From contig OU612074.1 in NCBI GenBank assembly GCA_914767715.1, positions 4,107,501 through 4,171,500 of the forward strand: 64,000 nucleotides of DNA, read 5' to 3'. Below the pieces are notes generated by a model. It saw only the letters and a program-made list of their open reading frames with translations, did not search any database and was not told the DNA's origin. Shown piece after piece: positions 27,601 through 54,600 of this stretch. Numbering within the stretch: the stretch's first letter is position 1; each line of letters starts with the position of its first letter. Both the position numbers and the translations under genes were made by a program. Source of the stretch: Membranipora membranacea (Eukaryota > Bryozoa > Gymnolaemata > Cheilostomatida > Membraniporidae).

Positions 27601-30600
27601 AGTAGTTATTCATTCTGACTGATTGAATTTAAGGAGCCTGCTGCTGAAAAGTCTGTGTCTTCCGCTGATAAAACTGCCACACCAAAACCAACACCTAGTG
27701 TTGAGCCACAGAAGAAAACAGAACCTGTGTCAGCAAAATCGCCTGCTACAAGCACAGAGATAACACCTGAGAGTAACAGTAAACCAGCTACTCCCAAAAC
27801 TGAATCTAAACCTGCACCAAACGCTGCCGCCAAACCTTCACCTGTCTCAGAGAGTAATAAAACAAACAATGTGCCAAGTGAAAAGTCAGCAGATAAAAGT
27901 AAATCTGATAGTGACAGTGTAAAGCAGGAGCCATCAGCTAAACTAGAGCAGATTAAACCTGTCTCAGATAGTAAGCCAGCTGCCAAGGAAAGTCAAAAGG
28001 AGGTAGAGAAAGTGAGCGAGCCTACACCACCACCAGCAGCTGCTGCCGCGCCTGTGGCTAAGAAGGTTTGTTATCTATGATAAGCAGATTTTGCTTGTCT
28101 CTTAGGTCTGTCCAGGTTGTAAACACTGGCTGACCCACTCAAATCATCAATGATATGAGTGCATTTGGAACCTCTACATGCTAAAACATCCCTATGTTGT
28201 CTGATAAATGTTATGCACCACCACATTTGCTGGTACACACGACCGACTTGGGATAATATAGTATGGATCTACAACATATAGACAAACAGTAGAATGTCTT
28301 TCTACCCTTATGTCTATGTTTGTTAAGGGTATGTGTGTCTAGGGAAAACAGGCCAGGTTTAGTGACAATAAATGTTCCGAATAAGCTCATCACCTTAGTT
28401 TTGACCTTGCTTTAATAGTTTACTCATGATTTTAGAAGTTGTGTTCACATAGTGATCCTAGGAGTAGACTACTCATGATACATACAATTTGACAGTTCAT
28501 AAGACTGCAAAGTTTGCCCACATTATGGAAACAGAAGATAGTGTAATGTTTTGACTATTAACTCCTTGCAGCCTGATTCTGAGTTGATGCCTCCCCCACC
28601 TACGCCTAACTCAGCATCTAGCGAGAGTAATAAAGAGAACCAGTCGTCTTCTCCGGCTGCCACTGATAATAAACAAACCACACCCACAGCACAACAACCA
28701 CAGTCTAGTCAGCAATCTTCCCCCACCACCACTGCATTACCGGTAGACAAACCGGCAGCTAATGTGTCTATGAAAGGCTCCAAGAGTGTGGCTGACTTCA
28801 CAAATAGCACAACCGCCAATTATTCATACAAAGAGGGTAAGTTTGTGTAAGGGCAGCCAATCTCTGCAATTCAGTTTGGTGTTCGTATAGTCAGATACCA
28901 ATGATTGAATCTCATTGCTCCACACACCCTCTTTCACATGTTCATGAACACACTCAGGCAAACTCAGCAGTCTAAACTATTTCCAGTGTTCCAGATGCTC
29001 CCCATATATATATATATATATAATATCGCACATGACTCAGTTAATGTACATGACGAAAGCTTCTGTTTCTGTATTTCACAAGTAACTGTCTTGTACGTAG
29101 GATACAACTGATATTTTCTTGATGTAGATCTAACACGGCCTTTGAACCCAGAAGGAAAGAAGGTATACGATCGAGACTTCTTGATGAGCCTTAGGGCAGC
29201 TGGTCCATCTAAAGAGAAACCTGTAGGCCTGCCAACACTGAATGATATTCTGCTGGCTAAACCTCTACATTCATCTGAAAACCTTTCTTATAGAGAACAG
29301 ATTCGGCGTGATATGAACCCTAACTTCTTCAAGCCGATGCAGGTCAGTAAAAACCCACTGAAATATCTTCAAATCGGTTTAAATGCTTGTAGGTTGCTCT
29401 GCATTTCCATTGTCCGATCATCTGATCAGCCATATGTAGGGACATGAGCACCATACATAACAAGCTTAGCAGTAATTCATTACAAATCTTACATACTAAA
29501 ACTTCTGTTGTTTTTATGCGATCTTGTTATATCCGCTGGTATATAATAAGTTATTCTCACTGAAACAGCTGGGTGTGTTTGTAGTCTAGTTTATCTAAGC
29601 CTGGTGGAGACTTGGGCTCCAGATCATCTCCTTTGTTTGGCATGGTTTGTATCTGATCTTGTATTCTCCTCATGTTAGCCATATTTCCTCAAAATTCTCT
29701 ACACCTCATATGCGCAATGTTTGAATCCTCAACACATTGAAATCAATTATTACGGAACTGAACCAAAATTTGGAGACACATTTATTTCAAAGTATACTCC
29801 ATACACCCCGAGAGACACTGATAGCAGTTATCAACATTTGCTAACACGGTCAAATGGAATTTCTCAGCTTGTACATTGCCATATCTAGAAAATATCATAC
29901 TGTTGTTATGAATGCTTTCTATCAGTGCCCTGTCACTACCTCTGCCTCCACACTTACATCTATCTATCTATCTATCTCTGCATTGTGTCTTGTACTTCTG
30001 TTGTTCATTACAAGCCTCTGCCTATCTGACACGGTGATGTCAACAGTTCTCTACTTATGTATGCCACTGCTGCTCATAATCAAAACCAGAGTTGGTGTTA
30101 CTGTTATGTAGATCTGACTTCAAACATGAAATTACCCGATTACTGTGTTGTAGAACCAATTATAGGTCCGTTCAAAACTGTTAACTGTTAACTGTATTAT
30201 ATTGCATGGTCATTTCTTTGAATTTCTAACATTGTGTTATGTTTTATTATTCAGTCTCCCCGAAACTCACAGCAGAAAGGAGGCGGCGGCGTTAGAAGTA
30301 TGAATAAGAACAGCAGTATGGGACAACGCCAGGGTGTCAAGGTCATCTCTCATCAGCTGCAGAAAAATGTAGAATTCAAAAATGTAAGTCTGGTACTCCC
30401 TTGCCTCGGCATTATTAGCAGCTCTAAGCGTTGTAGCGCTGAGTATTTAAATATCTGAATGCTCAACTAATATACAACATGGCAAGTGAGCCCATGTTGC
30501 AATTTTGACTCAGGAAGCGAAGTGACTTTGGAATGACTGAGCAGAATATTTGGATTCTTTGAATACCTCCTCTTTATATTCCTTCAATGTTGTGGCAGTC

Positions 30601-33600
30601 TGAATGATTAGAAGATCAATCACATTTCATCCATTCACATTCATACATATACAGTATAGGATTAGAAGTATTAGTTGTCCTGTGTGTCCTGTGTGTCCTG
30701 TCTGTCTGTGTCTGTGTCCTTAGAGCATTATAATAACCATCTGTATTACAGAGAGCAGAGAATGCCTGGAAACCTGGAGACAAGGCTAAAGACGAGAACG
30801 CAAGCGAGGATGATAAAACACACAACGATTTGCTCAAAACTTTCAGAGGCATGCTCAACAAAATCACACCACAAAAATTCAAAGTTATTCTGGAAAAGGT
30901 GGGGACCAATTGATAGAGTTTTCTCCCTTGGTGTGCCACATGAGTATGCGTGACTTGTAGTCAAATGAGATCAAGTATAATCCAATTTGCTTATATTTGG
31001 AGTTACTCCCCTTCAGGCTGCTGCTAATCAGTAGAGTTGAAGAGGCCCTGATGTGAGGCAAGTTGGATCAAACTTTATCTTTGATTGAATAACATTACGT
31101 TACATAAGATTCTATCTGTGAATGAGAAACCAGAAACCTATAAAAAATGATTTGGCAATGACAAAAATACTCCCTTTTAAATGCTAAACTTGATAAATTA
31201 TACTGATATTTGGCAATCTCTACTGTCTGTAGTTTGAACAGAGATGATCTATTGGCTGCTACGGTATTTCACAAATATTTCAATGAGGAAACCGTTGCCA
31301 AGTTTTGACAAAACAACATTATTTTTATTTTTAAATGTTTTGACTCGACTCTCGCATCATCAAAAGATTTTGCTGAAAAAAGAATGGTATCGTCATCAAG
31401 CCAAAAGAAATTAACAGTCCCAGCTGATAATGTGATTATGTTGGGTTTGGTCGGTGACAGGGCATTGTCAACTAAATGAAAAAATTCACTTTATGGTATT
31501 TTTGCATGTTTGCTTCATGATGTTTGCCCGCTGTTATTGGTGACAGTCTCAATCTGTATCATAAAGCCTATAAATATTTAACTATGCTTTCATGCATGCA
31601 TGAAGGCCCCAAAACTTGGCACCAACGTCAGTATTTCTGCTTTGTTCGTTGTAGATATTGAAATTATCAGTAAAATCAGAGCAAGATCTTAATGGAATTA
31701 TGAACCTTGTGTTCGAGAAGGCCATTGCAGAACCTGGATTCAGTGTTACATACGCCAGTCTTTGTGAGAATCTAGCTAAGGTTAGTGATATCACAGTGCT
31801 ATTTAAGTCCGGCCCAAGCCTACTATGTAGAGAGCTCTTCTCGATCTAGCTGGAGAGATTTCAATAAATCATTCCAGTTGGCAGGAAAGAATCCCTCACA
31901 ACATTCACATGCCGTGATCAGTTGACAAGTTATACAAAACGTCTTTGAGAACTACAGACTGTTTTGCGAAGACCATTTCCATTCTGGCGTGAGAGGTAAA
32001 AATAAATATTATTGTGCTTTTTGTAAGTGTAATAGTAGATTATATATTATTCTGACTCAGATATAGACAATAATGGGGTAAACCTGATTGTCCAGAAAAC
32101 AGGGGTTAATGATCCATGATTCTATATTCTTTATAGAGATTCTTTTCACCACAGTATTTGGTCATATATCAAGTTCAAGTGGATTTAAAGTGGTTCACAT
32201 TTATCCTCAGTCACACTAAGTAGTTAAGAGATCTTTAAATAAATATCTTGAGACTAATAATGAGACTTGCTACGGGATAAGAAAGTTGAGGAACTTTTCA
32301 CCAGTGATGTCTCAAAATATATCTGACAGTGATGTCTCAAAGATGTCTCAAGACAGTGATGTCTCAAAATATATCTGAGGATTTTGATTGGAATCATTGA
32401 CTGCTCATTGTTTTGATTTAGAGTTTTCATAATCACAACCCATCCCCCTCTATATTATAGTGTTATAACCAGCATTCTGGTGATCAGTAGTGGTGATCCT
32501 TTACTTTACTTGAAACCTAAAAACCCAAAGGCTATGGTCGCAGGCAAAACTTAACCAACTAGTTTGTGGAAAATACTGAATTTCACCTAACAAGTTTTCA
32601 GGGTCTTTAGTATAACAACACCACACCAGGGCAGAAACATGGCCAGAAAAACTAACATGGGAATCAAGGTTTTGGATGAGAGTGCTAGTTCAAGAGTTTT
32701 GAATATGTAAATTTAGTATCTGTTGGCAGGTAGTTCTAGACATGGATGAATTTTAATACACTTTTAATTGATGTCAACAGGCCAAATTTTATACTCCGTG
32801 CCTTCCCGTACCGCACGCTGAGTTCTGCCTGCCCAAAAAACAAGATTTATTGCTCTTACCATAGTGTTGCAGTACGCTCTAATCACAAATTATGCATAGT
32901 CAGAATGTGATGCTCACTCATTTTGCTCTTATAAAGTTTTGATGCATTTTTCAGCGATAAGTCAAGTGTCCATGGTTCACGCTTCAATCATGTTGAGTTC
33001 CCTTTCATTTGAGCATAGTGAGCAGATTCTAAGCTGGTCATTACTATAGCTGAAGTAGAGTTTTCGTTACATACCAGTTAACTGGTCTTGACATAGTCTT
33101 AATATATGAAGTCTATGGCTCTAGATAATGAAATTGAGCCAGGTGCACTCTCTCTAATTCATTGATTCTTGAAAACTTGAACATTTTTTGGCACAAAATT
33201 ATTCACCAAGGAATTTTACCTGAATGATATAATAAAACATTACATTGATCAATATATAACCCTAAGCATAGACATTAATAGCCGACAAAAAGTACATGTG
33301 GTTTTCAAAAATTTCACACCGACATTGAGAAATTCCAAGATTCCTTGTAAAGACCACAGACTTATGTTCATTTTCTTTTCAGGTGATCAATATCCTTGCT
33401 TCAACTTTAATTACCTATCCAATTGTTGTATCCCAAGCAAAGCGCATGGACTTGAAGTGAGAAAAAAGACCGATAGTTTGATCAGTGCAGAATATTAAAA
33501 CGCCATACCAATGTAGTGCTGTTATGTAATCAGTCAGTAAACTATAACAATTATTTGGCGAGGGGGGCTTTTTAAGTGCAGAGTTGGGCACAGTACACCA

Positions 33601-36600
33601 GTACAATGTTAATGCAGTCTATGTGGCTCACGCCGCTAGGTATGTATGTGGCCATGCTGAGACCTAACACAAACTTTACATGGTGACAATCTTAATCCCG
33701 AAGACCTTTTTGGCTGATGATCCATCTAGATTCATCTTTGGTACCCTTCAGACAGTCAAGCTGTCATGTCAAGTTAAATACCCATGCAACTTAACATGAC
33801 AGCTTGACTGTGTGGAAGGAACCACGCTAAATGGATGAAATAACAATATACTCCTGGAGAAAGAGAGTTCAATTTGTTGGTCCAATATAAAATTATCCAA
33901 ATCTTCGTCTTCGTTGGCGTCCGTACTTCATTTATTTCTGTCTTATCTGCTGTAGGAGTTTAAGGTACCACTAGCTGATGACCCAAATACAATTGTGAGC
34001 TTCCGAAAGCTGCTACTCGTACGATGTCAAAAAGAGTTTGAGAGATCACATGATGATGATGTAGAGATGGTAACAAAAAAAGCAAACCTGGACAAGGCCA
34101 CAGGTGACGAGAAGGCTCAACTTCAAGTGGAGTTTGATAAATTTGAGACCGCTGCTCGACGCAGGAAGCTAGGAAATATAAGGTAAATAGAAGATAGAGT
34201 TCGATCAAGCATGATCCAATTTGCCTACATATAGGGTTTGAGCCGCGCGGGCTCACCATTAGAATGGGAATGACCGGTCTGCGGGCAAATTGGATCAAAC
34301 TTGTTCTAAGATAAAGTAATGTCAGTTCTATATGTATGGCTCTGTCATATCCAAAACCTGTCATACAAGATAGTAGCTACCAAAAAATCATTATTATGCC
34401 ATTACTCAGGGAAGGTTATCTCGCTGTTGTGACTTGCTAAGAATTCCGGATGACCATATCTGGCGTGTTGTGCTTGGTCACTGTGCTCTGTAGTCACGTC
34501 TAGGCGCTCCAGCGGTACAATATCATCCCCTTACACTGAATTAGACCCAATACCGACCAGTCCTTACAAGGAATTTGGGATTAATGCAGCACATTGATCG
34601 ACTTTTCAATACTCTGGAACTGGGCAAACTATACATCGGTAACATATTTAAATAGGCCTTATATTACCTCCCTGCACCTATGCTCAGTTGCTTCACTCCT
34701 AACTTGAGTATGTTAGGTCCATGACAAATACAGGAAATCCTGAAATCCGTATAACGGCAAAATCCTGTTGCTAGCTCCTCATAATCCGCAATTGGTATCG
34801 AAACAGTGAGCGCCAAGCATTGTCTGCAGGTGTTCAATCATAGCCAAATGAGGAGATTTCTCAATGGCATTTTATAAAAATTAATGTTTTGTGAGGAAAT
34901 TGTGTAATGGTATTGGAGGAAAGGTCATTCTGAATATGGAAATGTGCTACGGAGATGTACCTTCATTCCCACCCAAATAAAGAGAGCTTGTAGCAACAAG
35001 CCAAAATTTACTCAATTTTGACACATACCGACATTATTATAGCTACTACAACTACACTATACCCTCTAATCATATTTACACCTCAGTGTAAGTATGCACA
35101 CCTGTCTGAGTTTATCACATGAGTTGGCCCGAAGAGTTAGATATGAATGTACTCATGCCGCAAGAGATTGCTCATATACCGGTCCGCTCGGGGTTTCAGA
35201 TGCTCGTATTTTTGACAGCAGTTGTCTCTCGCTAGAACCTACAAATCAAATTTGTTCCACTGCTTCACACAATCATGCACTGGAATTGCTGTCTTGGACC
35301 AATACAACAGTACATATTACTAAGCTCAGAGAGTCCCAAAAATGTAATCAGCGACACATGGTTTTGTTTGGGGTTTAGAAAGATTAAGTTGAATGAAAAT
35401 ACTTTAATTTCATCTGCATATTTTGACCATTTCAACCTGACATTAATGAAGATTATGTACAGTGATTTGCTAGTGATATTGGAAGCCAACAATGAGTGAG
35501 TCATCTCTGCCACCATTGAATGACCAGGTTGTGATTAATTCCTGGACCCCATTCATAAAAATACAACATTAAAATAAAAAACAAAAAACATCCATATAAA
35601 CAAGAGGATATCTGAAGGGTTAGGACAAATGAAGAGTGATTCAGTGATTTGAAAACCTGTGTTAATATTTCAATTAAAAATCTTCAATTGTCTGCTTGAG
35701 TGAAGGGTAATGATTCAACCACTGTTATAAATCACATCTCATTGTTGTGGATTAGCATAGAAGCAAAGGTAACCACTAAGCACTGATTAATTAACAGTAT
35801 CGAAAACATGACTACTGCTTATATTGAGTACTCTATGCATTTAATCCTCAGAGGCCCTGAACTCAACAGTGGTAGCTAAAATACAAAGCCTGAAGGAGGA
35901 GGTTTACAATGAAGCTCAGGACTACTCTAAAAGTCACGTACACCAGTATTTTGTCATCTTATAATATGATGTTGTGTACGTCAACCTATATCCGTGTTCG
36001 ATTGTTCATTCAAGATATGTTGGCAAACTATAAAAACGACTCTCTCACTGTCGCTAAACCTTCGTTAATCTCAATTATCCTTGTGGACGACAGGGGAGTC
36101 CGCCATGAGAGTCCACGCTTGATCAGTGCACATGGTATATCATATTCAAATCTAGGGCTACTTTGTGCGTCATCTTCAAACTTACACATTATTTGCCAAT
36201 TATACTCATAACTCAAGATCAACACCACAAAAGTGGAAGTCACCATCAGTTTTGAAGCAGGCTCCCAGTGGGTTGGTCCATCAGGTGCCCAAGGGCACTT
36301 GGGGATTCGAAGATGAGAATGAGAATCCTATTCTTTGCACTCACTTCTCTTGTCTGGGGTTAACCGTACGCTGATCATGTAGAGAAGAGCCATACACTAT
36401 GATCTCATGTTGCGATTTTGTAAGGATTTCGGGAGTAATCGCCCCAAGGAAACGGCATTAAAGTCAAATTCCGATTGTGACGAATGACTTTTTGGACGCG
36501 AATACACATACCGTGTAGAATCGAATAATTCCTAATTGGCTTGCACACAATGACTTCAAAGGGCATTGACGCGGGAGGCTGGGGTTCAAGTCCCGGCCGC

Positions 36601-39600
36601 GGCAGATTCTTTTCATGTTTTTTCCAACATGGGAATGGTTAGAATTCATAAATCGAAATTGGAGTGAACCACAAATTCGAAGCATGGAACCATAGTGATA
36701 TACTACCTCTGCCTCCTTTGTTTGTCAACTAATAATACGGGATAGGGAAGCTAATCTAGACAGCAAAGCAGTCAACTGTGCAGTTACATAGGAACTATGA
36801 GGGTAATAATGCTCAAATTTGGTCCTTGATTGGGTTTCAAAATTTAGGATAATCCTCTATTTTAGTTTACTTTAATATTTGTTTCCAATACTTACCGACC
36901 AAAGTGGATATTAAATCTTAAAAGTGACAGAATGATTGTCAAAGTAAGTTGACAACCATCATAGAGAAACATTCCTGAAACCTTAGCAATGATTTTAGGT
37001 ATAAATTTTCACAAAAATTTGTTATGGCCTCTGAACAGGACTGTGTTATATGAACCCCAGTAAGCAAAGACTGGGTCGTCAAATAGCTCAATTGTCAATT
37101 GATACATTAATATCGATCACAAACTCAGGTTTAAATATACAAAGCATTCTAAATGCTCAGGTTGGTAGAAAACAATAATAAAATACTTGATGTGTGAGCT
37201 TTGCTCATTGCCCTTATGTTATCTGAAACCTGTTGGGTGGCAAAAAGGACACCAACGACAACACTTCTGATTTTCCGCATCATATTTTTTTGGTTATTTT
37301 GTGCTGTGATTCTATATCAATTTGACAGAGTGCTTCTTGTTTTTTTATTAAACAGCCCTGGCCACAGCTGTCCACAAAAATAAAACAAAAATCCATGGTT
37401 ATGTCATAAACACAAGCAGGAAGTGTAATTTTAGCAATGAATGATCGTCACTTGGGCCATACTATATATGAACAGCTTGGCACAAAAATCTGCAAATGAA
37501 TATGAGGGAACTGATTCCCAAAAATTGGCTGCGGTCACAATAACGGGAATTCATTGATATTGGTGTCGTATGTCAGTCGCTTGACATATTATTACTGTTT
37601 AGCACTGACGACATGCCTTTCAGTAATGTCTTCGCGCCTTGTCATCCATTTCGATAAAATTTTGGCACATAGCGTAAGGTACTTTTTTTCCTTAAAAATG
37701 AGTATGATGCCCCAAAAAAAAAGTGGCCCGGAGACGATAAATAATCCTCTTCTCTTGCGCTTTTCATTAGCGTTATGCCTGAAGAATACGCACGTCGTCG
37801 TCGTCGTCGGGGGGCCGTCTTGCGAGGGGCAAAAGTCTGGGGGGCTCACGCTAACCAGTACCGTGCTCTGCCTATGCAATATTTTGAAAGTAAATAATTA
37901 AAGAATCCTCGCCGGTCTAAGTCATTGATATCGTTAGAAATTGTCTCCCTTGATGACCTATGATGAATATAAGTGGTATGGTGTTTTACTGCACTATATA
38001 AGTTAAAGTCGATGTTAAAGCATAAATCTTGACTGTGGTCTCTGTTTATTATTTTCATATTTGATATTTTTTAGGTTCATAGGAGAATTGTTCAAGCTTC
38101 AAATGTTGGTACATAAGATTATGCACGACTGTGTGGTGAGCTTACTGAAGGGAGCCGATGAAGAAAGTTTAGAGTGTCTGTGTAGACTTCTGACCACAAT
38201 AGGAAAAGAGCTAGACACAGACAAGGCAAAGGTATGTTAGTCTTTCAAGCGATAGAAATTGTGATGATTTAAGTTTTTGCTTGTGAGACATAAAAAATGT
38301 CAATCGAATTTGATGTTGGCACCTCCTGGCCAACTTCCCTCAAACTAATAATTCCGATTAACACCATATAATATTATTTGATGTTTTACTTAGGTTTTGG
38401 GTAGCCCAGATTTGATAAGGCAGTAGTTACATAATCCCCTTAGGCTCTTGACCAGGTTGAATGTGAACTTTCCACAGCTTAATCTGAATATAAATTAAAT
38501 TGATTGTAAAACGTGATATGAAATAAGTTTATCTGACAAAATTTTTCCATCTTTTTGAAACATTTACAATGTTTTCGAGTTTCTTACAACTAACTGATCA
38601 TGATCACAAATCATGATAACAAATCTATTCATGGTATCTACTAGGAGGGATTAACCGTTTTCCTTAGATTTCTATACCTGCTGTTTTATAAACACACCCT
38701 AATTTTTGCTCTGATTTACCCCCTTTGATGGGGAGATCTTACAAGTTTGACTTATCCTCATGGCTCAAAAGATTTTTAAGAGATTTGTTCTGGTTCCGAA
38801 ATCTAATCATCAATCCATTGGTCAAAAGAATGTCTGTACTTTGATATTTATAGAAATGTCGGTCACAACTCTGCATTAGCCCAGTTCTCCTTTTGTCCCT
38901 TGGTCTAAACCCAGAATACTGCCACCATAATAATCTTCTCGAGTAATTTGACCCTTCTCTTTTGAAGCCGAGGACGAATCAATATTTTACCGAGATGAAG
39001 AAAATAGCCGATGGTCAGTCTCATAAGAAGGTCTCATCTAGGATTCGATTCGCTCTACAAGACACTATCGAGCTTAGAGAGGTGAGTTTCCCATCCCTCA
39101 CTCTCAACCAACAAGAGAGAAACAGACTAGGTGACATGATAATCGTCTCCCCCCCCCCCCCACCCTAGCCAAAATGTTGTTTGGTAGCAATCAATCTCAA
39201 AAACCTTCATACCCTTTATTTTAACTGATGAATAATGTATACCACTGATTGTAATACACCATTTGAGGTGGAGCAGCTGCTCTAGGTAAAGAAGGTCAGC
39301 AACACTGCCTGCGGGTCATACGCATCGCCCTCACTCATAACATGGTATGCCCTCTCTTATACTTTGGTCACTCCTCCCCAGATCATTGACCTTATGGTCT
39401 CATCAGATATGTTCTCATCTCACTCCACACTCATCTCCTCACTTCCAACATCCAGACATAAAATGCACGAGCTTTGATAAGCCCATGTTGCCTTAAATAG
39501 CCGCGAAAATAATTAGACACCCAGCATTAGAATATCACCCACTATAGATAATATCGACCTTGTATGATGTACCAGCTATGATAGATTTATACTTTATACT

Positions 39601-42600
39601 TGGCGTGGTCTCTTAAACAACGCCAAGCATAAACAGCTTGGCATAAACCATAAAATGAATATTGTTTGGCAACATATTCCTTAAATTTGGCCTCATGGTA
39701 AAGGAAAACGCTGTTACATGCCTCACATACAAAACCGGTAGCATCCTGGCAACATTGGACACAGGAGGTTGGCACGGTGGTAATATAGGCCAAGGCTTCT
39801 TTCTCTTCATGGAAAACAAATGGCACTGACACTATGGAGTAAAGTGCTAGGCTCTAAACTCAATAAAATTAACTAAATTAATTATGCATTCAATGCATAA
39901 ATTAAAATTCTTGTATCAACCAGGTAATATATACGCCCTATAAATCTAATATTCATATTCAACGCAGTGTTTCCTTTGGAAAGGACACCCTGACCGCCAA
40001 GCAATGATAAATTAGCATAATTCTAGAGACCATTAATCTATATTTGTGCTGAATATGTATATGTTTCTTCCGCAAAGATTTCATACATAATTGTAATAAA
40101 CATGTAATAACAAAAAACTAATGGTGATGGGGAAAAATTTGGTTGAAATATGTATTGAATATCTGCAGAAAAACGTCAACAATAATTGCTACACAGGATC
40201 AGCAGTCAGTTTATGTACAAAAAATAGAATATTTACACTGTAATAGATAAGCTTTTGTGATTGAAAATCTAATACTTGATTTCACCATTGGATGGAGTTG
40301 AGTGGAATGGTACCAGAGGTCTATTTGGGTATCTGGGAGTCATGAATCGAACTAGCTCTGGGTGATGAGGGTAATTCTCAGATACGAAATGAACCATGTT
40401 TTGGTCATGAGGGTAATCTGTTGTTTTATCGGGCAAGAAGTTCACAAGATTAGGGTTATGGGGGTAATCAGTAGCCTTGGTGTTATCAGGGAGAAATTGG
40501 ACCATGTTTGGGTTATGAGGATAATTGGTAGGTTCTGGTTTGAATATCACCTGGTCAGAGTGATGTTGGTAGTTGTCCCCATCAGATAGAAAGTTAACTG
40601 CTGCTGGATCATGTTGATAATCAGCTGGCTGAACCCGTGAAAATCTAATGAGACCAAATTTACTTGCAATGAAAGCACAAAATAAAACAGCAACTACTGT
40701 GAATAAGAGTCCGGTGATACAGGCGAGCATGGTCCAGAACTTGGCGGTGCGCTTGTGTTTGACAGCCGAGTCGTAATCACCCCTGTTCTTTTCTGTACGT
40801 GCTGAGAGAAAGTGAACTAATCCAATAACAGACAGCGGGCCGAAGCAGACGATGGTTGTGAGAATGGACATAACATAGTGACATGTCCATGGCCTAGTGA
40901 CTATCTCGGGGGCCAGCTCCTGTAAACAAAGATTAATAGAATAAGTCACCTCCAACATTAAGAAGAAGCTCCATTACTCCATACCGAATCATGAAAATGT
41001 GTGATTTGTGTAACAAATCCTCCATCACTCATGTCTATCCGGAGTTTGGTTGTTTTAAACATAGCTATAGTTAGGACAGTGAACACTTACACAATCGGGT
41101 GTGCTGACGGGGGACATATCGACTGTCGTAGCATCCTTGTCCATGGATATCACAGAAATAGTCGGCTTCTTAAGATCTCTGTCACCACCGATCTGTACAA
41201 CCTTTTTCTCTCCCTGTACTCCTGCTCCTGGTCTCATCTTGTATGCTGGTCTGTAAGATAAATGAATATTTGAGACACGCTAATCATGTGAAGTAATAGT
41301 GATACATAAATCTAAATAAGAAAAAATACACAAGGCTCTAGGCCTCAAGGCAAAGTAATTATTCTGAAATCCTAAGTGAAGCTTGGATAGTGATGTAAAT
41401 AAGCGCCAAGCGCTGCCTTCTCACGCTGCCGCAATAATACTTGACCGGGTTGTTCAGCAGCTGTCACCTGAGTGAACAGCTTCACCAAGTGGCTATCTTT
41501 TTTGTCTACACTCAACTAGAACAGCCCTCAAGCCCTCAAGAGATTGCTTCTTGTGACAAAGCATTTACATGCAGCACTTTTGATGTGAGCTTAGAAACTT
41601 TGCCTATGATGATTCCAAAGGACTGAAATGATTATCAAACACAAAAAGATAGAAAAATAATTCTCAACTCTCCCTTGACAAAGCTTCTTTTTCACTATCT
41701 TAAGCCCAACTGTTTTATGTGCACATGCGATTAGGCCCTCTAGGGACAGTTGATTGCTAAAAAAATGCACAAAGAAAACAAAGAGCTGTACTTATATAAA
41801 CTTCTTATGTTTACCTTGTGGTTCTTATATCAGCCTCAACAACTTTGGTTTCCTGACCTTTGTGGTGCCAATTAGATGAGAAGAGCAGACACAAGATAAG
41901 GTTAAACAATGTCTCAGTAAAATGTGAAACCTGAATACTTGAGAGGGAGATATTGTTACTTACATGTATAACACAGTATTAGTCAACTCTAGTCAATGAT
42001 ATCGACACCCTTATAATTATTGTAAGATATGCACTGGTGTGGATTTCTGATTTTTGTGAGGGGATTCAGCCTTGGCACAGCCTTATATATTATGCATACA
42101 ATACGCCTGGTTACCTCGAGAGTATATATAAGTGTTGTTATAGACTGGTATTGGTAGGATTATACATGCATGATTGAATAAATAGCCTGGAGATATATAT
42201 CATTACGATACAGCTATTCCTAGCTGAATGACGAATCATGAAACTTTTATTGTTGGCTGAACAACAAAAACAGTTGTCAAGAGATAAATCAAAATGGTCA
42301 GAAGCCTGTAACTAAGGATTAAGACTGTAATGATATGCTAAAAGATGATATTGTCTCAATATTTTCATTGCCATTCAGCAATATTATCGATTGTACTGAA
42401 TGTTTATATAGTAAAATTGGTAACTGACCTTTGGCTTCAATTAACCGAATTTGAGGAATCATATTATGATCTAAACTGTATCATTTTAATGACACAGTTA
42501 CCTGGTCAATTGAGGAAAATTGTATTCAACGAAATACATCTGTTGTGTTAGAATGGCGTCTGTCTGCGCTGCAGACTTGGGAGAAATCTCTGCAAACAGC

Positions 42601-45600
42601 CAGAGGGTCTAAAGTTGAACGACTCGATCTATGCAACACCTTCCTATACCTCCCTCATGTGTTATAACTGCGGTAGCAGCTGTTTTGCATCGAACATTGT
42701 CAAATATTTGGGTGTCCAGATTGTTTATGACAGGACAGGGTGTCACCATTTAGAAGCTGTCGTTATGTTTGCCCATTGCCTTGACACCCTTACTCTGTGA
42801 CACAGGTATGTAACTGTTTGATAGATGAGGACAATTGTGGTTTTCTGCATTTCTGACAAGTGTCCAGCTGCAACCAAATGGACTGAACACAAGTTCACCA
42901 ACCTGGGATAATGGAAAGACTGCTTGCTTCAATAAATTGGGAATAAACACTATCTGCAGGTGTGCCGCCCCACGCCAATGACCTTGGGCCTTTATGATGA
43001 GTCACTCTAAGTTACGGGGTCAATGCCTTAGATAAGCGGAGCTCCATTGCCCCATTGCTCCATTTGAAATCCGCATGTCTCATTCACCATGTCGCAATTA
43101 GCTTCCTTCTGATTAATCAGCCTGGTCTAGGACATGGAGCATCCATTGTTAACTGCCCAAAAATAGACTGGCGTGATAAGATTATTGCTTTTTTGCAAGT
43201 GCTGTGGTGCAAGGCCGAAAGCATAAAATGTTTGGGTCCGGTTTTATCTCTAACTTTGAGACTTGAAAAAGAAAAAAAAACACGTTTCTAAAAAGTAATG
43301 GTCCACTACATTTTTGCCAGCAGCTGAAAGTTCTTGTGATGTAAATATTGTGACATTTAGCCAAATGAATGGTTCTTTGTTTTGGTGATCATCCAGGAAA
43401 TAGACTACCACCAATCATGATTAGTATTAGGTTGGTGCTATTAGCTACAACTGAACAATTGATAAATGACCTTAATAACATAGATTAACTGTAGGATTTA
43501 AGAGGGACTGCACTGCGAGTGTTTACAGCTTAGTGAGAGAAAGCTGTTTGTTTAGTGGTCCAAGTTCAGCCCCTTTTATAGTAAGCGGCTTATAATTACA
43601 CGCTACAACACTTCTCGCAGCAGATTATACTAGGGCAATGTTTGCCAGCGAGAGAATAGTCTCATTGGTTAATTAGCAGTATCCAGTGGCACGTTTATGA
43701 CTGGATTCATTAAAAGGCTTTGTTTATGGAATATCATTGGCTGATAGCTAACCTTATGATTATATCGCAGCTTGTAAACACGCTTTGTGTCTGCAGGGAA
43801 AAATGTGGAGATAATGAGCAAAGGTAGAATTTCAAGCTCTATTTTATTAGCTGGTCTGTGGACCGCTTTATGTCCAATTGTTGATTGACTCGGCAAGCAA
43901 ATTAGGTTATAAATATTATGAATCATTGCTTTCCCAACTATTGCGTTAACCATTATTCTATGTCTAGGTAAAAGCTCAGAAATTGTATAAAAATCAGGTT
44001 GTCCGCTGTTGTAAAATCAGGGGAAAACTGCCAAAATATGAGATGTTCACAGCTATAGGAAGTTGTCCTTTCTTTTAAATTACTTCTCAAAGAACAGACA
44101 ACTCTGAGTTTATTTTGCATTCTGGATCTACTCAGCATTTAAAAAGTAGCATCACAGCATATAATAGTAGGCTGTATGATGCTGATGTTGATATACATAA
44201 TATTTATATGGAATATTTAATAAATATATGTTATATACCCAATAAACTTGAATCCCCAATGGTAATTAGTGTTTAATATGATATATAAACGATTCCGGTG
44301 GACTAGGAAACGATTAGAGGCAAATCTTCATTTGCCTTAAGACTCTGACAGTAAAGAGCCAAGTTTACTAGGAAGTAACGCTGATGTGACATCCATGGAC
44401 TGCCATACTTTTTGAAGGAACAATGGTACATATACTGTCAGAATGATTGACTGCCCATTCATCATCACAATGAATCACTCTGACACCTTAGGTATATTCT
44501 AATATTTGACACCAACAGTTCCACAATGTCAATACATAGGATTCGCTAGCTTTGGTGAACTATTCATAGCGAAGATTACAGCTGAGGCAATTGCTGCTTT
44601 TGAAGATTAACTGTGGTATTATTGAAAATGATCATGAGACACAGCACAATGTAAACATGGAAATATAAAACTAAAGCTGCATCAGCAGCATCCAGCAAAT
44701 ATGCTACTCATTCTTCACATCTATTACACTAACTGTCATATCACTTACAGTATAAACCATACAGTTTGGGTTGGCTGAATAAAATAACCAGTGTTTTTTG
44801 TATAAACAAACAAAATTTTGTTGTCAACTAGATAGCACCACGCTTTGCCTGTTTCTTGAAATATCACCCAAAGATTTCAATCTCAGCTCCATGTGATTGT
44901 TTGGCATGACTAATACTGATGAAGCAGTTTCATAACTAATGATTTCCTCCTCAAGCCAACTTCATTTGATCTAAGCATAAGCCCCTTTTGATTGCAAAAT
45001 AATCTAAACTGTTGATGGATTTTTCCTTGTGCCTGCCTTTAAATAGCACATTCATCATGATTTGTGGTTTCTATTGCCAACATGTCATGTGTTCATTGCA
45101 CAGGTAATTGACGCTGGATTTTCGATTTTTTTGTTGAGATTTTATTGTAGTTTTTTTGTAACAGGAACTTGGTAGAAAAAGTGTAAAAATTATAGGATAC
45201 AAAAACAAAGAAATATGAAATTTTATTTGAAGTGATAAACTATTGAAGACTCATGACAAAGTATTTCTCTGGTACAATTTACTCACAATTTATCTGAAGA
45301 CAGTAATTGTGTATTTCGAAAAATGAAGTACGATATGATTGAGGCATAGTTATGGAGGCAGCATGTTAGGCCATGCTCACAGGTTCAAAGGTGGCTTCAG
45401 TGGTGTCCAATATCTCATCATTAATCATCTCCTGTTCCTCTCTGATGATCTCATCCTCGAGAGCCTGCTCCTCCTGTATCTCCTGAACCAGCAGAGACTC
45501 AGTGGTGGTGCTGCTTGTGCTTGATGTTGATGCTGTAGTAGCGTTGAACATTTCCTCTTCCAGTAAGAAGCCAGTTGTTGTTGACCCTGTGAAGGTTTCG

Positions 45601-48600
45601 TTTGCGATCTCCTGCTCGAGAAAGCTCTCTGTTGTCGACGTGGAGGTGGAGGAGGAGGTGCTGGAAGTAGGGTTGACTTCCTCCTGAAACTCCTCAATGA
45701 TTTCACCAGTGTTCCCGTCAATTATCTCCTCCTGAATTATGGTGTTGTTGTCAGGCCCTGTGAATTCTTCCTCAATCACTTCGATGTTGTCAGTGGTAGA
45801 TTGAATGCTCTGTGAGGCGCTGTCGAATTCGGACATGGTTGTAGTTGTTGTGCTGCTGCTGCTCGGCTCTATAACTTCTTCAGCCAGGATTTCACCTGTG
45901 TTCTCATCAATTAGCTCTTCTACAAGTGTGTTGTTGAAGACTTCTTCGATAACTTCAACGTTATCTGTGGTTGATGATGGAAATGCAGATGTGCTTTCAA
46001 ACTCTGATGGTGTTGTGATAAGCTCATCAATGTTGTCAGACATAGTGGTGGACTCAAAGTTGGATGATGTTGTCTCAAAGTTGGATGATGTTGTCTCAAA
46101 TTCAGGGGTGGTAAGATTCACTTCATTTTCCAGCTCTTCGAGTTCTGCGGTGAGTTCAGAATTCTCTTCAGCCACTTCATCAAAATCCTCTTGGATTTGC
46201 TCATTGAGTACAGGGTCAGTTGTGTCTTCAAGCTCTTGTTCAAGCTCCTCTCCCTCCTGCTCATTTTCCAAGATCTCTTGAAATATTTGCTCCTCTACCT
46301 CATTGATGAATGTGGTTGTTGTTGAGGCTGTCGCCAGCTCCTCTTCAATGCCCTCAGTTGTTGATTGAACGATCGGCTCTCCAAATGTGGTGGTCTCTGA
46401 CTCCCATGTGGACTCTGGTCGCCATGTCGATTCTTGGTCAGTGGTTTGTGGCCACCTCTGGAATGGAAAATCTGTAGATACGAAATCTGCTGTGGTTGAT
46501 TGGAAATCTGCTGTGGTGGAAGGCTCTTCAATCATTGGAAGCTGGTTCTGGTACTGAGGACCCATTATCCAGTTGAACACATGGACTACACCATAAGAAG
46601 AGGTAGGAGTCGTTGGTTGTTCTTGCTGTTGCTCTTGAGACTCCCACTTGTTGTTTCCGGTTTGTCTTGAAACTGTGAAGTCGTCATCATAATCCGGCGC
46701 GCTGAACATGTCACCAAAATTATTGACAAACCAATAACCTCCGGCAAGCATTAAAACAGTAAAGATGGTAACTGCTACGATTCCGACGATTACAGCCCAG
46801 CATGACCAGCATTTGGCTTGCCTCTTTCTCTTCCTTGCTTCGACCATGTTACCTTGTTTCTGGTGTGTCTTGGCAGCTATGAAGTGAACAAGTCCAATGA
46901 CGCTGAGGGGTCCAAAGCAGCAGATGGTTGTCAGTATGGTCATGACATAGTGACATGTCCACTTGCTTTCATCAGCAACAGGTGCTGCTACATCAATTGA
47001 GGTCTGTAAGGAGAGCATTGCAACTCTTAGTATTTTCAATATAAATTATATTGAAAAAGATTCCAGCAACGGAAAGCAGATCAATGATTATAACATACTG
47101 ACTGTAAAGGTGTAAAATTTATTAAATGTTAATGTGTAGCATGCTGTTATCGGGGACATTTACCTCTTTAGGGACAATGGGTGTCATATCCACAGTTGTT
47201 TCTGTCCTTCCTCCGCTGATAAAGGAGATGACAGGAGACTGATTCTTCTCTACTTCAGCACCCATCTTCACCTTACCCTCGGCTGTTCCTGGCTTCATTC
47301 TGTCAAAATCAAAGAATCAAATCAAGGATGAAAAAAAGATACTGGAAATCTTCGAGAAATCCATGCAGACGATTATAATCAAAATTTCGACAGATTTCCA
47401 TGTAAGTTCAGTTGTCGCATAGTTTGGTGTCTGGAGTTAGAGATAATGACATGTTTTATTAGTGTATATGGTAGCAACGACATTCAAAGTAATAATCATC
47501 AGCATTTTCTTGTATTATGAGGAATAAGTGTGTTGTTCTCTTTCAGCCGAATATTTCTTACCTGTTTGATTGATAATTAAATCAAGTTACTCTGAAATAA
47601 GTGTTTCTCAGGGGTTAATTTTCCCAAAACTGATAAGTGTGAGCAACACAGCTCACAGTTATATTATGAATCTTGGCGCATCCTGCTGATATGCCTCACT
47701 GGGTAAAGGAAAGCTCAGCTTGTTTTTTGCACCCTTAATCTTAGCTGATTGGCTAGAGTTCACTTTTTATGTAAGCTATTTCCTCAAATCACGCACCTCT
47801 ATGTTGTTACACAAAATAATGTCATGAAAGCCCATATGCTAAATGAAGGGGTAATTATGATAATTATCATAGCAAGAACCACAAAGCTGGCAACTGACTT
47901 TTCACGTGATATCTTTCTTCCTTACTCAAGAATAGCCATGTAGTCTCAAACAAAGTGTCTGGAACAACCATACCAGGCAACCCTGAAAATCACTTGCTCT
48001 ATAAATATTCCAGACAAGGAAATAAAACTATGCCAATTATTTATTTATTTTCGGCAAAGCACATGCAACACGATAATGGGGCAGATCACTTTTGGCAAAA
48101 AAAATTAAATGATCTGAAAGGTTTTTCTAAGCACATATCCATGAAAGTGAGAAGAAAACCAAAGCCCTAAAATCAGTGGTACTTAATTATTAGAATAGGG
48201 TTTCGGATTTGTGCTGGAAAAATGTGAACAAATGTTCAGTGTGGTTTCCTGCAGGCGGGTGATTAAGGTTGTTGGTTATGGCTGTGTTGGTTATGGCTGT
48301 GTTGGTGGAGGTGTAGTAGGTGGTGCTGTAGTAGATGGTACTCTTGTAGGTGCTATTGAAGGCTGCGTTCTGGTTGTAACAGGCTTTGTCAGCAGAGGTG
48401 TAGTTGTTGGAGGTCGAGTCCTCCTCGGTACAGTACTCCTAGGTAATGTTACTGCTGGCTGTTTTGGCCCAGCGCTGGTTGTTGTAGGGACATCCATGAG
48501 GCAATGTGGGGCATCCTTCTGCACAGCTTTGAAGTACAAACACGTCAAATCTTGGTAAGATTGGGACTTTATGATATTGTCCCGATTGCTGTAGCCTAAG

Positions 48601-51600
48601 TATCCGAATGCACCAGCTAGGCATATGCCGACAAAAAGCCCCACAAATATACAGTAGGTACCGACCTCCTTACGGGCCTGGGCGCGGCGTTTGCTACCGC
48701 GATGAAACTCGGATCGTGCAACAATGACGTTAACAAGTCCAACTACTGAGCAAGGGATACAGCAGCAGCAGAGAGTGGCTATGGTACCGACACAGCACGC
48801 TCCTCCCCATGGGTCCTGATCCTCCTTGTCCTGTAAAACAAAGGCATACATTCATGTATTGTCTCTGCTAATTATTGGTCACTGATCTCATGACCAGTCA
48901 ACGCTTGTCTATACTTCCAGATCAGGCATGAAGGATTTACTTTACAAACCTTACAAGCAGGATTTACTGCAAATCTCAAAGCTAAAATGATAGATCAGTT
49001 GTATTGGCAATTATTTTGTCATTTAAATTTATTCCCTTGGCTTAATCCCACAGTAAAGCTATCCCTTGAAACCTGGAACTGAATGTCAGCTATATACATA
49101 TATATATATCCTGTTCAATATATATATAAAAAAAACCACAGCCATGTCCGGCTTCTACAAATCCCCTTTATTTACTCATTCCCTGGACATATGTTTTAGA
49201 AGCTGATCCTCAAATTTAAAGCTGTCATAACTTCATCAACATATTTTGTTCATTCTCTTAACCAAATAGCAACAGCATGATTGGAAAAAAAAAGATTTAT
49301 AAAACTGACTGGAGACTTAAGTTGTTGAAAATGGGGTTTGCTTAGCAGTACATGAAGTGGATACCAAGAAATTTGTCCTTGTCATCACAAGCAAAGGTTA
49401 CTGATTAATTTACTCTACCTTAATATCTAGTACTGCAGTGGTGCCTGCATGAACCTCTGGTGTTTTCATTCTCCTAACCACCGGATTTATTGGCCAATGC
49501 TCTCAGATCAGTCATTCGTTATTATTTCGTGTTATTCCATGATAGCCTTTACTTAATGAAGATTCTCAAATAACGCACATAAGTTGAATAACGTGGTGAA
49601 AACGCATTGTCCAACGCAATGTACAACTATTTATTGCAAAGAGAAGGCAAATCGATCAGCTTATTAGTTTTAATAATGCTATAACATTCCTGTTTAGATT
49701 AATGACAAGGCCACTTGCCAATAAATCAAAGTTATTTATATTTCTAGACGACTTGTGGAATAAATTGCCCATGTAATGAACAGGCACATTCATGACTGTG
49801 ACAGCGATATCTGCCGCTGCTTATATGTTTTATAGAAGATGACAAAAAATGATAATAAAATTCCTTGGTTACTGATGCTGAGATAGTCACTTCGACATAA
49901 TTTATTTTATTTATACTTGGTATAAAATGTTACATTGGACTGATAGTTTATTGCATAATTCTCATTTAAGTCGTAGTCAGCATTATTTATATAGGCAATC
50001 CAATTGTCCGAATCTCATCTCTGTAGTCGTAGTAAATGATAAGCATGTAGCCTACAACCAACCACAAGACAAAACCAGATAGACAGGCCAAGCTGGTCCA
50101 GCAACATGCTGAAGATCTGCGTCTCTCTGCAACTCGAAATATACCCTTGTTGTAATCAGCTTTTCCGGTTATAAAGTGCGTCATCCCGATATATGTACAT
50201 GGGCAGCAGAAGCAGAATAGCAGAGTGATCCAGGTGAAACAACTCTGACTGCGCCATGGGTTACTGTCGAGCGTCAAACTCTGTGTAAAAAGAAAGATTA
50301 TAAAGTGGGATGCACAGATACGAAGTGCTCGTAAGCAAATTTAAAACCTCTGTTTCTCAAAAACTGAAAAAAAGCTAAATTTCAAAATCGTCATGAGATC
50401 AACAATCAATTGCCCACCTCAGATGGTAGTATCGGCTTGGTCTCTATCTGAGGCATTGGTGCAATAGAGGCTGTTGATTTGACTCCTTTCATCATATCCT
50501 TCTCATTTGCCATCCCAATCGTCTGCTGCTGAGCCTTTATCAGCTCCTGTTGCTGCTGTATAACTGTCATGGTCAGGGAGGCCTTCTGTTTTGACGCAGT
50601 AGACTTAGGCGGCTGACCGTAACCTATATAGCTGTCCTGACGCTCTTGTGGTGCTCCTCCATATCCTGGCTGAGACTGGTATGGTGGTTGGGGATAGTAA
50701 GCTGCTGCTGATGGTCTAGCACCCCAGGGTTGTGTAGCAGGTCCAGCATACGTGACAGCTGACGAAGGCTGTGGTGCATATCCTGCGATGGATGGCCTTC
50801 CCCAGGGGTCGGTTGATGTGTAGGCTGGTGGAGCTGCAGGGTACATGCCGTAGCCTGAGGCCTGTGGTGCATAAGAAGGACTATAGCCCTGCTGGTCATA
50901 AGCTGCTGCCTGCCCGTAACCCATTTCTTGGTTGTAGCCTGCTGCTTGTCCATAGGCAGGATCTTGGCCATATGCGGCTGAAGTAGCATCATAAGATGGG
51001 TACCCAGAGGCATACGCAGGTTGTTGTGCTGCCCCTCCCTGAGCACCGTACTGCCAGTCAGCCATAGCTTCTGGTACAGTGTTCAGTGGTGGATTTGGTG
51101 CTCGAACGGGCTTCTTATCTCCTAAGCTGTAGATTGTATCATCACCTACCTCAAATAAAGTCACTGCTAATCTATCCGACTCAAAAGCGTTGGTCATAAC
51201 CTTTTACAAGGCTGGAGTCATGGACTGCTGTCCAACAGTTTTCTGAGACATTTGACTGAGCAATAGAAAGTCGTAAGGGAAAGGAAAACTTTGAATCAGC
51301 AATGTACTGAAATTCAGCTTGGCACTCAACAATGGCTTATGCAGGGAAACATTCTTTGGCACAGTGGTAGCATAATGTTGGTTGCCTGTTTGTCTTCATT
51401 TTCTGGCAAAAAATTGGTAATAGAGAGCACTAAAATTACTTACTTCACCCTCAGTTAGATAAACAGAGGTCAATTAAGTAACTATTGGGAAACTGTAATC
51501 CTCTTTATCGCTAATGCGGAACAATGCATTTTTATCTTTATTATCCACCCTGAAAGAAATGTTGTAATAAAAGACAAAAAAAAACAGAAATACACTACCG

Positions 51601-54600
51601 CAGACAATGCTTAGTTTTTTAAGCAAAAAAGTCCAATTTTCTCTCCCTCTAAACCTGGTCTAAAGCCAAGAAATTTGTTTGGTCATATTGAATATCATTA
51701 AAATTGAGCACTGCAGCTTTGCTTCATGTTTACTGAGCTTTTTAGCAGCTTCTCATCACGTCACACAGACCTAAATCTCACATTGTTATCCTCATCATTT
51801 TCGGCCTAGAGATAATCTAATCACTACATTACAACCTGGTCGTAAGGCCCATAAAACTTTATAATCTGGGGATTAATCCTATTCGCTACTTCCTTTTTCT
51901 CCGCCAGTATCGTCAATCATCTTCTTCACCAGGTCAAAAACAAAAACAAAATGGCAGGTAGTGCTAGATTCTCCCATCTCCACCTCAAATGCTCGTAGTT
52001 TAATACCCATCCCCCCCACTAGTAGTATGCCTACCCCCCCCCCCCCTCCCCCATTTCAGCCCTAATTTCTTTGGCGCATTATGGAGAACATCTGGCCAGG
52101 ATGTTATTGTCTGCCATATATATTAGTGTATATAAATGTAAACCATGTATTACTGTGATTTAAATATTATCATAGAATATATAAGTAGATATTTAAGGTT
52201 GAAGCTGTATTCTGTGTGATGTATGGAAAATCATGCAGTAAGATAACACCACAAGTCACTTCTGTCCGACTAACCACTGATATAACTACCATGTGGCTAT
52301 ATTTACTTTTTCTTTTAGCATAACTGGAAGCCTCGCAGAGAAAGCAGTGGACCCAAAACAATAAAGGAGGTTCGAGCAGAGGCTGCACTTGAGGCTCATG
52401 AGAGGCAGATGATGGTAAATTCGGCTCAGATACCAAACCGAGGCAGCCAGAGCCGAAACTTTGCACAGCCCAGGTACGATAGATTTGTAAAAATTGTTTG
52501 ATGTCAAGGAGGGTTAATTAAAGGAGATTGCCGCTCACAACTCTTCTATCACTAGCTGGAGTTGTTTTGCTAGGTAAAAGACCCTTTACCTGGTACATTA
52601 CCATGAGGATACATTATAATATCACTCTAACTATACTAGGCTCACAAGTCCCAGAACATTATGTCAAAGTTGCTACTTCCCCATTACTTTAATGGCACTT
52701 TTAAAAGACATTAATTTCGTAAAGTTATTTATGTGAAACAAACAAACTGCTCATAGGTAACCATCACTTTGGCTAAGAGCAGTATTTATAGTCAAGCAAG
52801 TTCCACAGGGCTTATTTTCCAACATGGCTGAATTATCTTAGCAGGGACATCATACTTCCCCCTCTTTTATGGAAGGCATCCATGAGTTGTCACTGTCTTG
52901 CAAGAACGACATATTTTGTCATCTTTTTAATTTGGTTTGGTTGCCATGGTTAATTGAAGGTAAATATCTCTACCTGTACAAGGAAATACTGTAAACAGTG
53001 CTCTTTTACGCCTCATTTTTCAATCAGTTTGTTCAAATGTTTCACCACTGGTGTTTTTTACATCAGTACTGTACAGGGGGAAGTTTCACCATTGGAACAT
53101 TCACATGATGCAATGAATGGTTCAAGCTGTTGCAAGACCCCGCTTCCGGATCATTGTGGTACGGTGCAATGAGATAAAGCGTTTAGTGTTAGAACTTTCC
53201 TGATGTTCAGCATATAGAGCTCAACATTGGGCAATTATAATCTAATCCATTGGTCTAGGTAACTGTTCAGCCAAAATCAGTGGACAGAATGATTTTTATC
53301 ATGGATGCTGAAAATTTAGACATATCAGTTTTTTCCCTCATTTACATGTGTCAGATTGTCTAGATCAGGGCATTAGTTTTGAGTGAAAAAAAAAATAACT
53401 CCTATTAATAACTATCCGTCTACTTTGCAGACCACAAAGAGGTGAACAGGATGGCTGGAATCAGGTAGGAGGTAGTATAAAGCCTCAGCGTATAGACCCC
53501 AGTAAGCTCAAGCTCAGCAAACCTACATTTGGGGCAAGTGACACAGTTCAACTCGGACCAGGTGCTGGATTCGGCAGTGGATCCAGCTGGGGTAAGGGAT
53601 CAGGCTCTGGAAAAAATACACCACCTCAACAAGAGGAACGTCCTAACACTCCAACCAATAGATTCTCCGTAAGTGCCTACAAAATGAGATAAATAGTTAC
53701 TGTTAAGTTTTAACTGTTCTCTGTTGTTTTGCAGAAGATCTTTTATTACTATAATATGCGTATTTTTCAATAGCTTATTATTGATGATTTTGGTGCACAG
53801 GGTTATGATGTGGATAGTAATTTACTCGAATCACTGATTGTGAGCAGTTCACATATTTTGGAGTGAGCACCTCCTCCCTTACCAAATATTCCTGTTTCAC
53901 TTGAGAACTTGAGAGCATAGATTGTGCGCTAATTGAACCATATGACACTGCGTGATTTGAATAAACTTAATCTTGTGAATTAAACATTTGCTGGACCAGG
54001 AAATAAATGTCAGTTCCAAATATATTATACCAGACTTTCTTCCAATCGTTGGCAGATAAAGTCAAAACCTAAGAAAAAAGTATGCTCCAATTGTGTGCCA
54101 GTTTTATAAAATAACATAGAACTATACCCTGTCAACGCAGATCCACAGGAACCCAATATGTTCACTTACGCTTTGATCTTCTTACTGACAGGCACTTAGC
54201 ATGGGTGGTGATCGAGATGCAGGTAGAGATGAGAGATCTAGGTCAGGTCAGAGGTTACCTACTGGTAGGAATAGTATGGGCCGAGGTAGAGGTGGTCGAA
54301 TGAATATCACTCCACGTGGCTCCATGGAGAAAGACAGGTAAGTTGTCTGCTTTTGATTTCTCATCGAGGTGACCAAAGCTTAGGAAACTAGCTTTAAATC
54401 GTAATTAATGGATATGGGGTAGAACCTTATTTTGCCAAACCATTATCATGACTCACAGATGCACACATGTTCTAAGTTCTGGAGGCTCACTGAGGGCATT
54501 CTATCAGTTTTCGCCATCAAGAAATACCATCTTATCCCTGCTCTATGTTTACTTCAGATCTAGTGCACTAGCAGCTGCACGACAGTTCTCTAGACCAGGA

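Follow-up and report, generated by a model that had tools for sequence, protein, structure and literature searches.

A probable insertion of four antisense CD225 (dispanin) genes in an intron of an arrayed eIF4G gene of Membranipora membranacea

Clusters of genes nested within a single intron are already known. One intron of the large essential gene NF1 holds EVI2A, EVI2B and OMG in antisense orientation. Here we analyse a 64,000-nucleotide stretch of the genome of the bryozoan Membranipora membranacea (C10:4107501-4171500, called the window below; the genome searched comprised 339 Mb in 18 contigs), in which a plus-strand intron of a gene for the translation factor eIF4G (39082-52318; 13,237 bp) encloses four minus-strand CD225 (dispanin) genes, named A to D. 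Unlike these four genes, the NF1 trio is not one tandem family.

The closest known arrangement is the cluster of insect TipE genes in an intron of CG18675, whose members, according to the passages on TipE in PMC3240667, are co-expressed with one another and correlate poorly with their host. Common to both loci are several related membrane-protein genes within one intron of an unrelated conserved host, and nesting that was gained in one lineage. The host of the TipE genes is single-copy and its nested genes lie on both strands, whereas all four genes described here are antisense, and their host belongs to a tandem array in which nested and un-nested copies share one genome. Like the TipE genes, those in the window are most likely independent genes tolerated in an intron. 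A cluster of GMC oxidoreductase genes in an intron of insect flotillin-2 is similar in that multiple homologous genes occupy one large intron, but it differs in both family and host, and PMC3240667 mentions a proposal that those genes are functionally linked with flotillin-2. Among the open-access titles listed in literature searches on CD225, nested genes and eIF4G, none reports this locus. The unusual aspect of the locus is the antisense setting in one branch of an eIF4G array, together with the un-nested state in the same genome. We consider it probable that the cluster is an insert of about 13 kb with dispanin genes antisense to eIF4G, and that these genes are independent, tolerated passengers for which no regulatory coupling to the host is needed.

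The host intron and the nested genes

The eIF4G exon upstream of the intron (38968-39081), which encodes the end of the MIF4G domain, terminates at the donor GAGAG/GTGAGT, and the acceptor TTTTAG precedes the next exon (52319-52468), which is present at all nine loci measured. The two coding exons join in phase. The peptide joined over 39081/52319 aligns without a gap at the junction to positions 612-744 of the eIF4G1 chain 6zmw_g (E = 3.4e-45), and it also matches EIF4GII (1hu3_A) across the junction; we take both chains to be human, although the match table for 6zmw_g names no organism. Exons for the eIF4E-binding motif and for MIF4G lie to the left of the intron and those for MA3 and W2 to the right, all on the plus strand, and 17 eIF4G exon pieces could be placed in order along the host. 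The presence of the eIF4E-binding motif, MIF4G, MA3 and W2 in one gene identifies the host as eIF4G. At the sequence level, each of the four genes lies whole within one intron with in-frame host flanks, and the match across the junction bears out the proposal of the first-pass annotation that a single in-phase eIF4G intron holds an antisense nest of four genes.

Each nested gene has a GT..AG phase-0 intron directly before the segment encoding two helices. Gene A encodes 265 residues (41091-41237 and 40269-40919), and gene B encodes 590 residues (47164-47298 and 45366-47003) with a long acidic tail rich in threonine and glutamate. Gene C encodes 196 residues (49419-49469 and 48291-48830); its first exon, with only 17 residues and a weak upstream context, is the least certain part of the models. 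Gene D encodes 357 residues (50418-51197 and 49987-50280) and has an N-terminus rich in tyrosine, glutamine and proline. The four longest stop-to-stop frames in the intron, of 559, 265, 234 and 186 residues, are all on the minus strand. For 300 first-order Markov sequences as long as the intron, 165 residues was the 95% limit of the longest frame and 236 residues the highest value; the 559- and 265-residue frames are longer than any frame in all 300 random sequences. The only direct repeat of at least 30 nucleotides in the 38-53 kb region of the window is an 80-nucleotide pair in the helix-coding region of A and B, and no inverted repeats were found in the same region. An open reading frame of 88 residues that contains cysteines follows gene A on the minus strand (39590-39853). 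It was rejected as a fifth gene, with no family match above the cut-off; the frame is split by an insert in copy 2 of the nest and has a different end in copy 3 (both copies are described below).

The four genes could be parts of one transcription unit, either as alternative cassettes behind a shared 5' leader or as a trans-spliced polycistron. The head-to-tail order of the genes and their phase-0 junctions at the same place agree with such a unit, and so do the acceptor-like CAG triplets 13 and 1 nucleotides ahead of the ATG of A and B, respectively, and the short spacing between D and C (about 0.5 kb) and between C and B (about 1 kb). However, B and A are 4.1 kb apart, inspection by eye revealed a weak acceptor-like site in C and none beside the start codon of D, and separate minus-strand AATAAA signals lie 139 bp downstream of B, 239 bp downstream of C and 38 bp downstream of D. 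A single transcription unit is unlikely, though slightly less so than the other rival readings. Because of the acceptor-like triplets near their start codons, A and B are likely to possess untranslated upstream exons, so that two coding exons would not equal two exons in these genes.

Origin of the insert

The host intron was measured in nine copies of eIF4G, three of which contain the insert, four have a plain short intron, and two are recombinant. The insert-bearing introns are 13,237 bp long in the window, 20,676 bp in copy 2 and 9,804 bp in copy 3. The plain short introns measure 146, 147, 223 and 230 bp. In copy 3, approximately the left 60-65 nucleotides of the short intron precede the insert, and its last 22 or so nucleotides, with the sequence found in the copies at 4.40 and 4.45 Mb, follow it. 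Since the two ends of the short intron still frame the insert in this copy, the cluster is, judged by this alignment, an insertion into a short intron. About 60 nucleotides of the short intron are gone at the insertion point, and about 20 nucleotides were lost at the right edge in both the window copy and copy 2. Alignment with the short-intron copies and with copy 3 places the approximate limits of the inserted segment at 39150-52310, with a poly-C run on the left and the right edge 5-15 nucleotides before the acceptor. Between the window and two copies with a plain short intron, at 4.40 and 4.45 Mb, the two exons flanking the intron are 95-96% identical. The three insert-bearing copies form one clade with a local support of 0.995 on 246 nucleotides, and of 0.997 from the exon before the intron alone.

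In the opposite history, the large intron would have come first and the short ones would have arisen from it by deletion. Two observations agree with this: no right flank of the short intron can be seen in the window copy, and two short-intron copies are recombinants with a parent of the nested type. In these recombinants (at C10:4180540-4181350 and 4470300-4471200), the introns measure 477 and 480 bp and include a second, incomplete version of the following exon together with roughly the final 200 bp of the insert. Because the extra partial exon is joined to the end of the insert, they look like products of recombination between short-intron and nested copies, and thus like traces of exchange between them. 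Against an ancestral large intron, the middle parts of the short introns of the 4.18 and 4.59 Mb copies have no match in the window intron, the most diverged copies measured (87% identity) also have a short intron, and both short-intron ends persist in copy 3. We regard the deletion of an ancestral large intron as quite unlikely.

The nested genes probably started to diverge before they reached the intron. The comparison of A with B over 62 codons provided 1.46 synonymous (dS) and 0.41 nonsynonymous (dN) substitutions per site (NG86 method; YN00 gave no value), which fits purifying selection. The dS between the window and copies 2 and 3 is 0.016-0.043 for the host, A and D; a dS of 1.34 over 69 codons, obtained for D in copy 3, was excluded, since that copy has no D and the match is to another gene. 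Given these values and the 95-96% identity of the flanking exons, the split between A and B is most likely older than the insertion. It follows that A and B had diverged by the time the nest was duplicated and most likely by the time it was inserted, and the lower identity of C and D implies the same for these two genes.

Runs of 13 cytosines occur at 39149-39161, at the left edge of the insert, and at 52034-52046, about 270-280 bp before its right edge. The right-hand run is shorter in copies 2 and 3. There are also four G runs, at 3.5-8.5 kb. The nested intron of copy 2 includes a 10.4-kb stretch (C10:4242781-4253202) with retroelement-like frames on the minus strand, recognised from the frames only.

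Dispanin features of the nested genes

We call all four nested genes dispanins, C and D with less certainty. The first-pass annotation assigned CD225 to each of them; the assignment holds directly for A and B, which score 45.1 and 44.5 bits against Pfam PF04505 (cut-off 27.1 bits), while C and D, at 14.9 and 14.6 bits, fall below the cut-off and owe their assignment to other matches. When exon 2 was scored alone, C and D reached 17.3 and 18.1 bits, and none of eight block-shuffled versions of their second exons matched CD225. Comparison of the domains by phmmer gave 39.9 bits for A-D, 35.6 for C-D and 22.6 for A-C, in a set of 13 sequences composed of A-D and nine outside peptides, three of which are wrong-strand reads and thus not CD225; this does not alter the matches among A-D. 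A genome search with B found D (E = 1.5e-4) and C (E = 5.2e-4, in an aligned stretch that overruns the exon of C and includes three stops). The search with C found D, B and CD225 loci on C1, C3, C4 and C11. On the combined basis of the exon-2 scores, shuffles, mutual phmmer matches and genome searches, C and D are called CD225.

The motif passages of PMC3282796 name as dispanin features a G-D pair in the loop, the pattern A-x6-A, two adjacent cysteines within helix 1 and an aspartate that precedes this helix. By eye on the alignment, the loop G-D is present only in A, A-x6-A in A, B and D, and both the helix-1 double cysteine and the aspartate before the helix in B, C and D. The passages on gene structure in the same source describe a conserved splice site that interrupts the loop joining the two helices and that S. 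mansoni and mouse Dspa2f do not have. This site is also missing from all four nested genes, in which both helices share one exon. Of 64 CD225 matches in the genome, 28 pass through the loop (four of them being A, its two copies and B), 35 stop there, and one covers the second part only. Genome-wide there are at least 64 such matches, of two exon types, many of them in tandem groups, such as those at C1:29.38-29.46, C2:25.90-25.93, C2:33.63-33.66 and C4:6.52-6.58 Mb.

The exon pattern separates the nested genes from the IFITM (DSPA) type, which has two exons split in the loop and no separate N-terminal exon, as far as the exon descriptions in PMC3282796 go; all four genes here are split ahead of helix 1. 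The N-terminal splice site before the first helix is shared with DSPC and DSPD1 as described in those passages. The sole significant match of the gene A domain among solved structures is PRRT1 (E = 7.3e-5), a further likeness to dispanins of the C/D type, of which SYNDIG is another member. Unlike that type, A-D lack the loop splice site, and A, B and C have long tails after the second helix. The same PRRT1 chain was the sole match of gene C among solved structures, without significance (E = 0.75), and gene D had no relative among them (best E = 0.79, unrelated). Structure models of D and C from four-row alignments, with predicted local distance difference test (pLDDT) scores of 76.9 and 72.0, had no fold match in the PDB at E <= 0.001, a result that is uninformative for helical hairpins. 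In NCBIfam, neither the complete A sequence nor the helix portions of B, C and D scored above any curated cut-off. Scans of viral contigs returned four pattern matches for the A domain and three for the host peptide, none of which was confirmed.

Gene B has no second copy among its 22 genome matches. Outside the array, its closest relatives are a tandem CD225 cluster at C4:6.517-6.577 Mb (ten matches, 34-46% identity) and two genes on C1 (36-41%). The cluster on C4 is the first candidate source of A and B. The link to antiviral IFITM proteins that the first-pass annotation found tempting is not supported here, since the only significant solved match of A is PRRT1, and the nearest relatives of B other than A belong to a different CD225 cluster of the same genome. 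A-D are predicted to encode dispanin-type membrane proteins with two helices. Mammalian dispanins act on membrane fusion and SNAREs, as stated in the relevant part of PMC11730294.

The eIF4G array and the relation of the nest to its host

eIF4G is normally a conserved, low-copy factor. The eIF4G gene of the window belongs to an array of about 0.5 Mb (C10:4.126-4.654 Mb) with at least nine copies. Searching with the peptide of the MIF4G end located nine copies of the FIGELF exon at 4.145-4.647 Mb, plus partial copies on both strands; diverged eIF4G matches outside the array lie at C10 14.7-14.8 Mb and on C1. Along C10, one short-intron copy separates the window from copy 2, and three such copies separate copy 2 from copy 3.

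The modules of the host in the window, all on the plus strand, begin with the exon containing YDRDFLM (29121-29357; 20.3 bits for the Pfam eIF4G1-like eIF4E-binding family, cut-off 27), which we take to be an eIF4E-binding motif of the form YX4L-hydrophobic. MIF4G exons follow at 31655-31786 (PF02854 26.3 bits, cut-off 30.8, profile positions 24-64), 38073-38234 (56.4 bits, positions 104-163) and 38968-39081, the exon with the donor of the nested intron (22.4 bits, cut-off 30.8, positions 166-201). The exon at 33956-34183 in the MIF4G region has no Pfam match alone and is also present in copies 2 and 3 and the 4.18 Mb copy. The MA3 exon lies at 55179-55559 (PF02847 54.5 bits) and the C-terminal W2 region at 56146-57160, with 26.3 bits against PF02020 (cut-off 30) for 56852-57160 and no match for 56146-56418. 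Several single exons, including those for W2 and eIF4E binding, thus remain below the Pfam cut-offs when scored alone.

The modules that are missing differ among the copies of the array. The eIF4E-binding exon is present in the window, copy 2 (4233687), copy 3 (4536139) and the 4.58-4.60 Mb copy (4584461), with a further part copy in copy 2 (4233132) and a 60% match at C10 14838181. Besides the window, the copies at 4.18, 4.40, 4.45 and 4.60 Mb have the MA3 exon. MA3 is missing from copies 2 and 3, the eIF4E-binding exon from the 4.18 Mb copy, and three MIF4G exons from the 4.58-4.60 Mb copy. Probes for the eIF4E-binding and MA3 exons had no match in the 4.62 and 4.65 Mb copies, which were not fetched whole. 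Of the copies found, that of the window alone has every eIF4G module tested, in agreement with the earlier expectation that an important host copy carries the nest. The array with its module-lacking copies is possibly more interesting than the nest.

All four nested genes are intact in the window copy only. The aligned pieces of copies 2 and 3 are mostly 91-98% identical to the window. Missing from both copies, with identical breakpoints, are gene B with exon 2 of C (window positions 45272-48922) and the MA3 exon (55015-56071). Copy 3 additionally lacks 49917-51428, which includes gene D, and its A has a stop in exon 1. In copy 2, D is open, and A has an altered, shorter tail. We infer that copies 2 and 3 lost these parts and that the window did not acquire them, most firmly for MA3. 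The dN/dS of the host relative to the window is about 0.87 for copy 2 and 0.49 for copy 3, both based on few changes, and 0.26 for the 4.18 Mb copy.

The first-pass annotation suggested that eIF4G and the CD225 genes, transcribed in opposite directions, could exclude each other or be coupled. In a rival reading, their convergent transcription has such an effect, for instance during infection. Such coupling draws on the restriction of the intact cluster to the module-complete eIF4G copy, and on the reported ability of nested genes to disturb the transcription of human host genes, in passages of PMC3192792 that mainly concern tandem arrangements. However, the cluster entered what had been a short intron, eIF4G copies elsewhere in the array manage without the cluster, and the CD225 genes are broken or deleted in the decaying nests of copies 2 and 3. 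The TipE genes, which correlate with one another and poorly with their host in the TipE passages of PMC3240667, also argue against it. Coupling therefore has only a slight chance of being correct.

An assembly artefact, either a false join or uncollapsed haplotypes, is very unlikely. The 91-98% identity of the pieces of copies 2 and 3 is partly within the range of heterozygosity. Nevertheless, the window contains no N bases, the intron included, and the three insert-bearing copies differ in gene content and share derived deletions. A haplotype should repeat window positions 1-25 kb, with an LRAT-domain exon (5566-6003, plus strand) and homocysteine S-methyltransferase exons (6736-12840, minus strand) upstream of eIF4G. 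In the fetched stretches (4.0877-4.2996 and 4.4866-4.5956 Mb, with 198 bases unread), this region has no match of at least 300 bp except the repeats at 1395-1707 and 3650-4199; the exon at window position 19065 does recur there. The repeated unit is eIF4G itself. Intervening short-intron copies also separate the window from copy 2 and copy 2 from copy 3. The join error inside the intron that the earlier annotation had allowed for is not needed, as the two flanks and a large part of the intron recur in two more copies on this chromosome. Least probable of all is the idea that the array, with copies devoid of either the eIF4E-binding part or MA3, is an immune-driven expansion of partial translation factors, and that the nest is retained in the complete copy because antisense transcription of its membrane-defence genes lowers full-length eIF4G in infection.

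Based on the comparison of the copies, a history of the locus can be proposed in which the nest is an insert of independent passenger genes. About 13 kb of DNA with already diverged CD225 genes would have entered an intron of approximately 146 bp at the end of the MIF4G region, in antisense orientation, the four genes probably arriving together. Later duplications would have carried the nest into two further, truncated eIF4G copies, in which, as read from these copies, it appears to be decaying. Each of the four genes in the intact copy most likely forms an independent transcription unit and would have a promoter and a poly(A) site of its own. Their products would be membrane-trafficking proteins with two helices, similar to PRRT1 and SYNDIG. 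The eIF4G pre-mRNA would be transcribed through the nest, which would then be spliced out.

Several observations weigh against this history. The right flank of the short intron is lost from the window copy, so the clean join is visible in copy 3 alone, and the exon at 52319, taken by itself, does not group the three nested copies. The comparison of A with B is short, and the dating covers only these two genes. No AATAAA was found within 1 kb of the stop codon of gene A, and promoters, poly(A) use and host splicing are predictions from sequence. The genome searches provide lower bounds. The occurrence of four intact genes only in the complete host copy could reflect a beneficial link rather than chance.

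The findings do not support a link between antiviral membrane proteins and translation. The nested and un-nested forms of the intron in one genome, with an intermediate that keeps both old ends, provide an internal comparison of the locus before and after nesting. If the copies are expressed, the 13-kb nested intron and the 146-bp introns of close paralogues may be compared for splicing and output in the same cells, which bears on how a nested antisense cluster affects its host. The eIF4G array, with its copies that lack modules, is worth study in itself.

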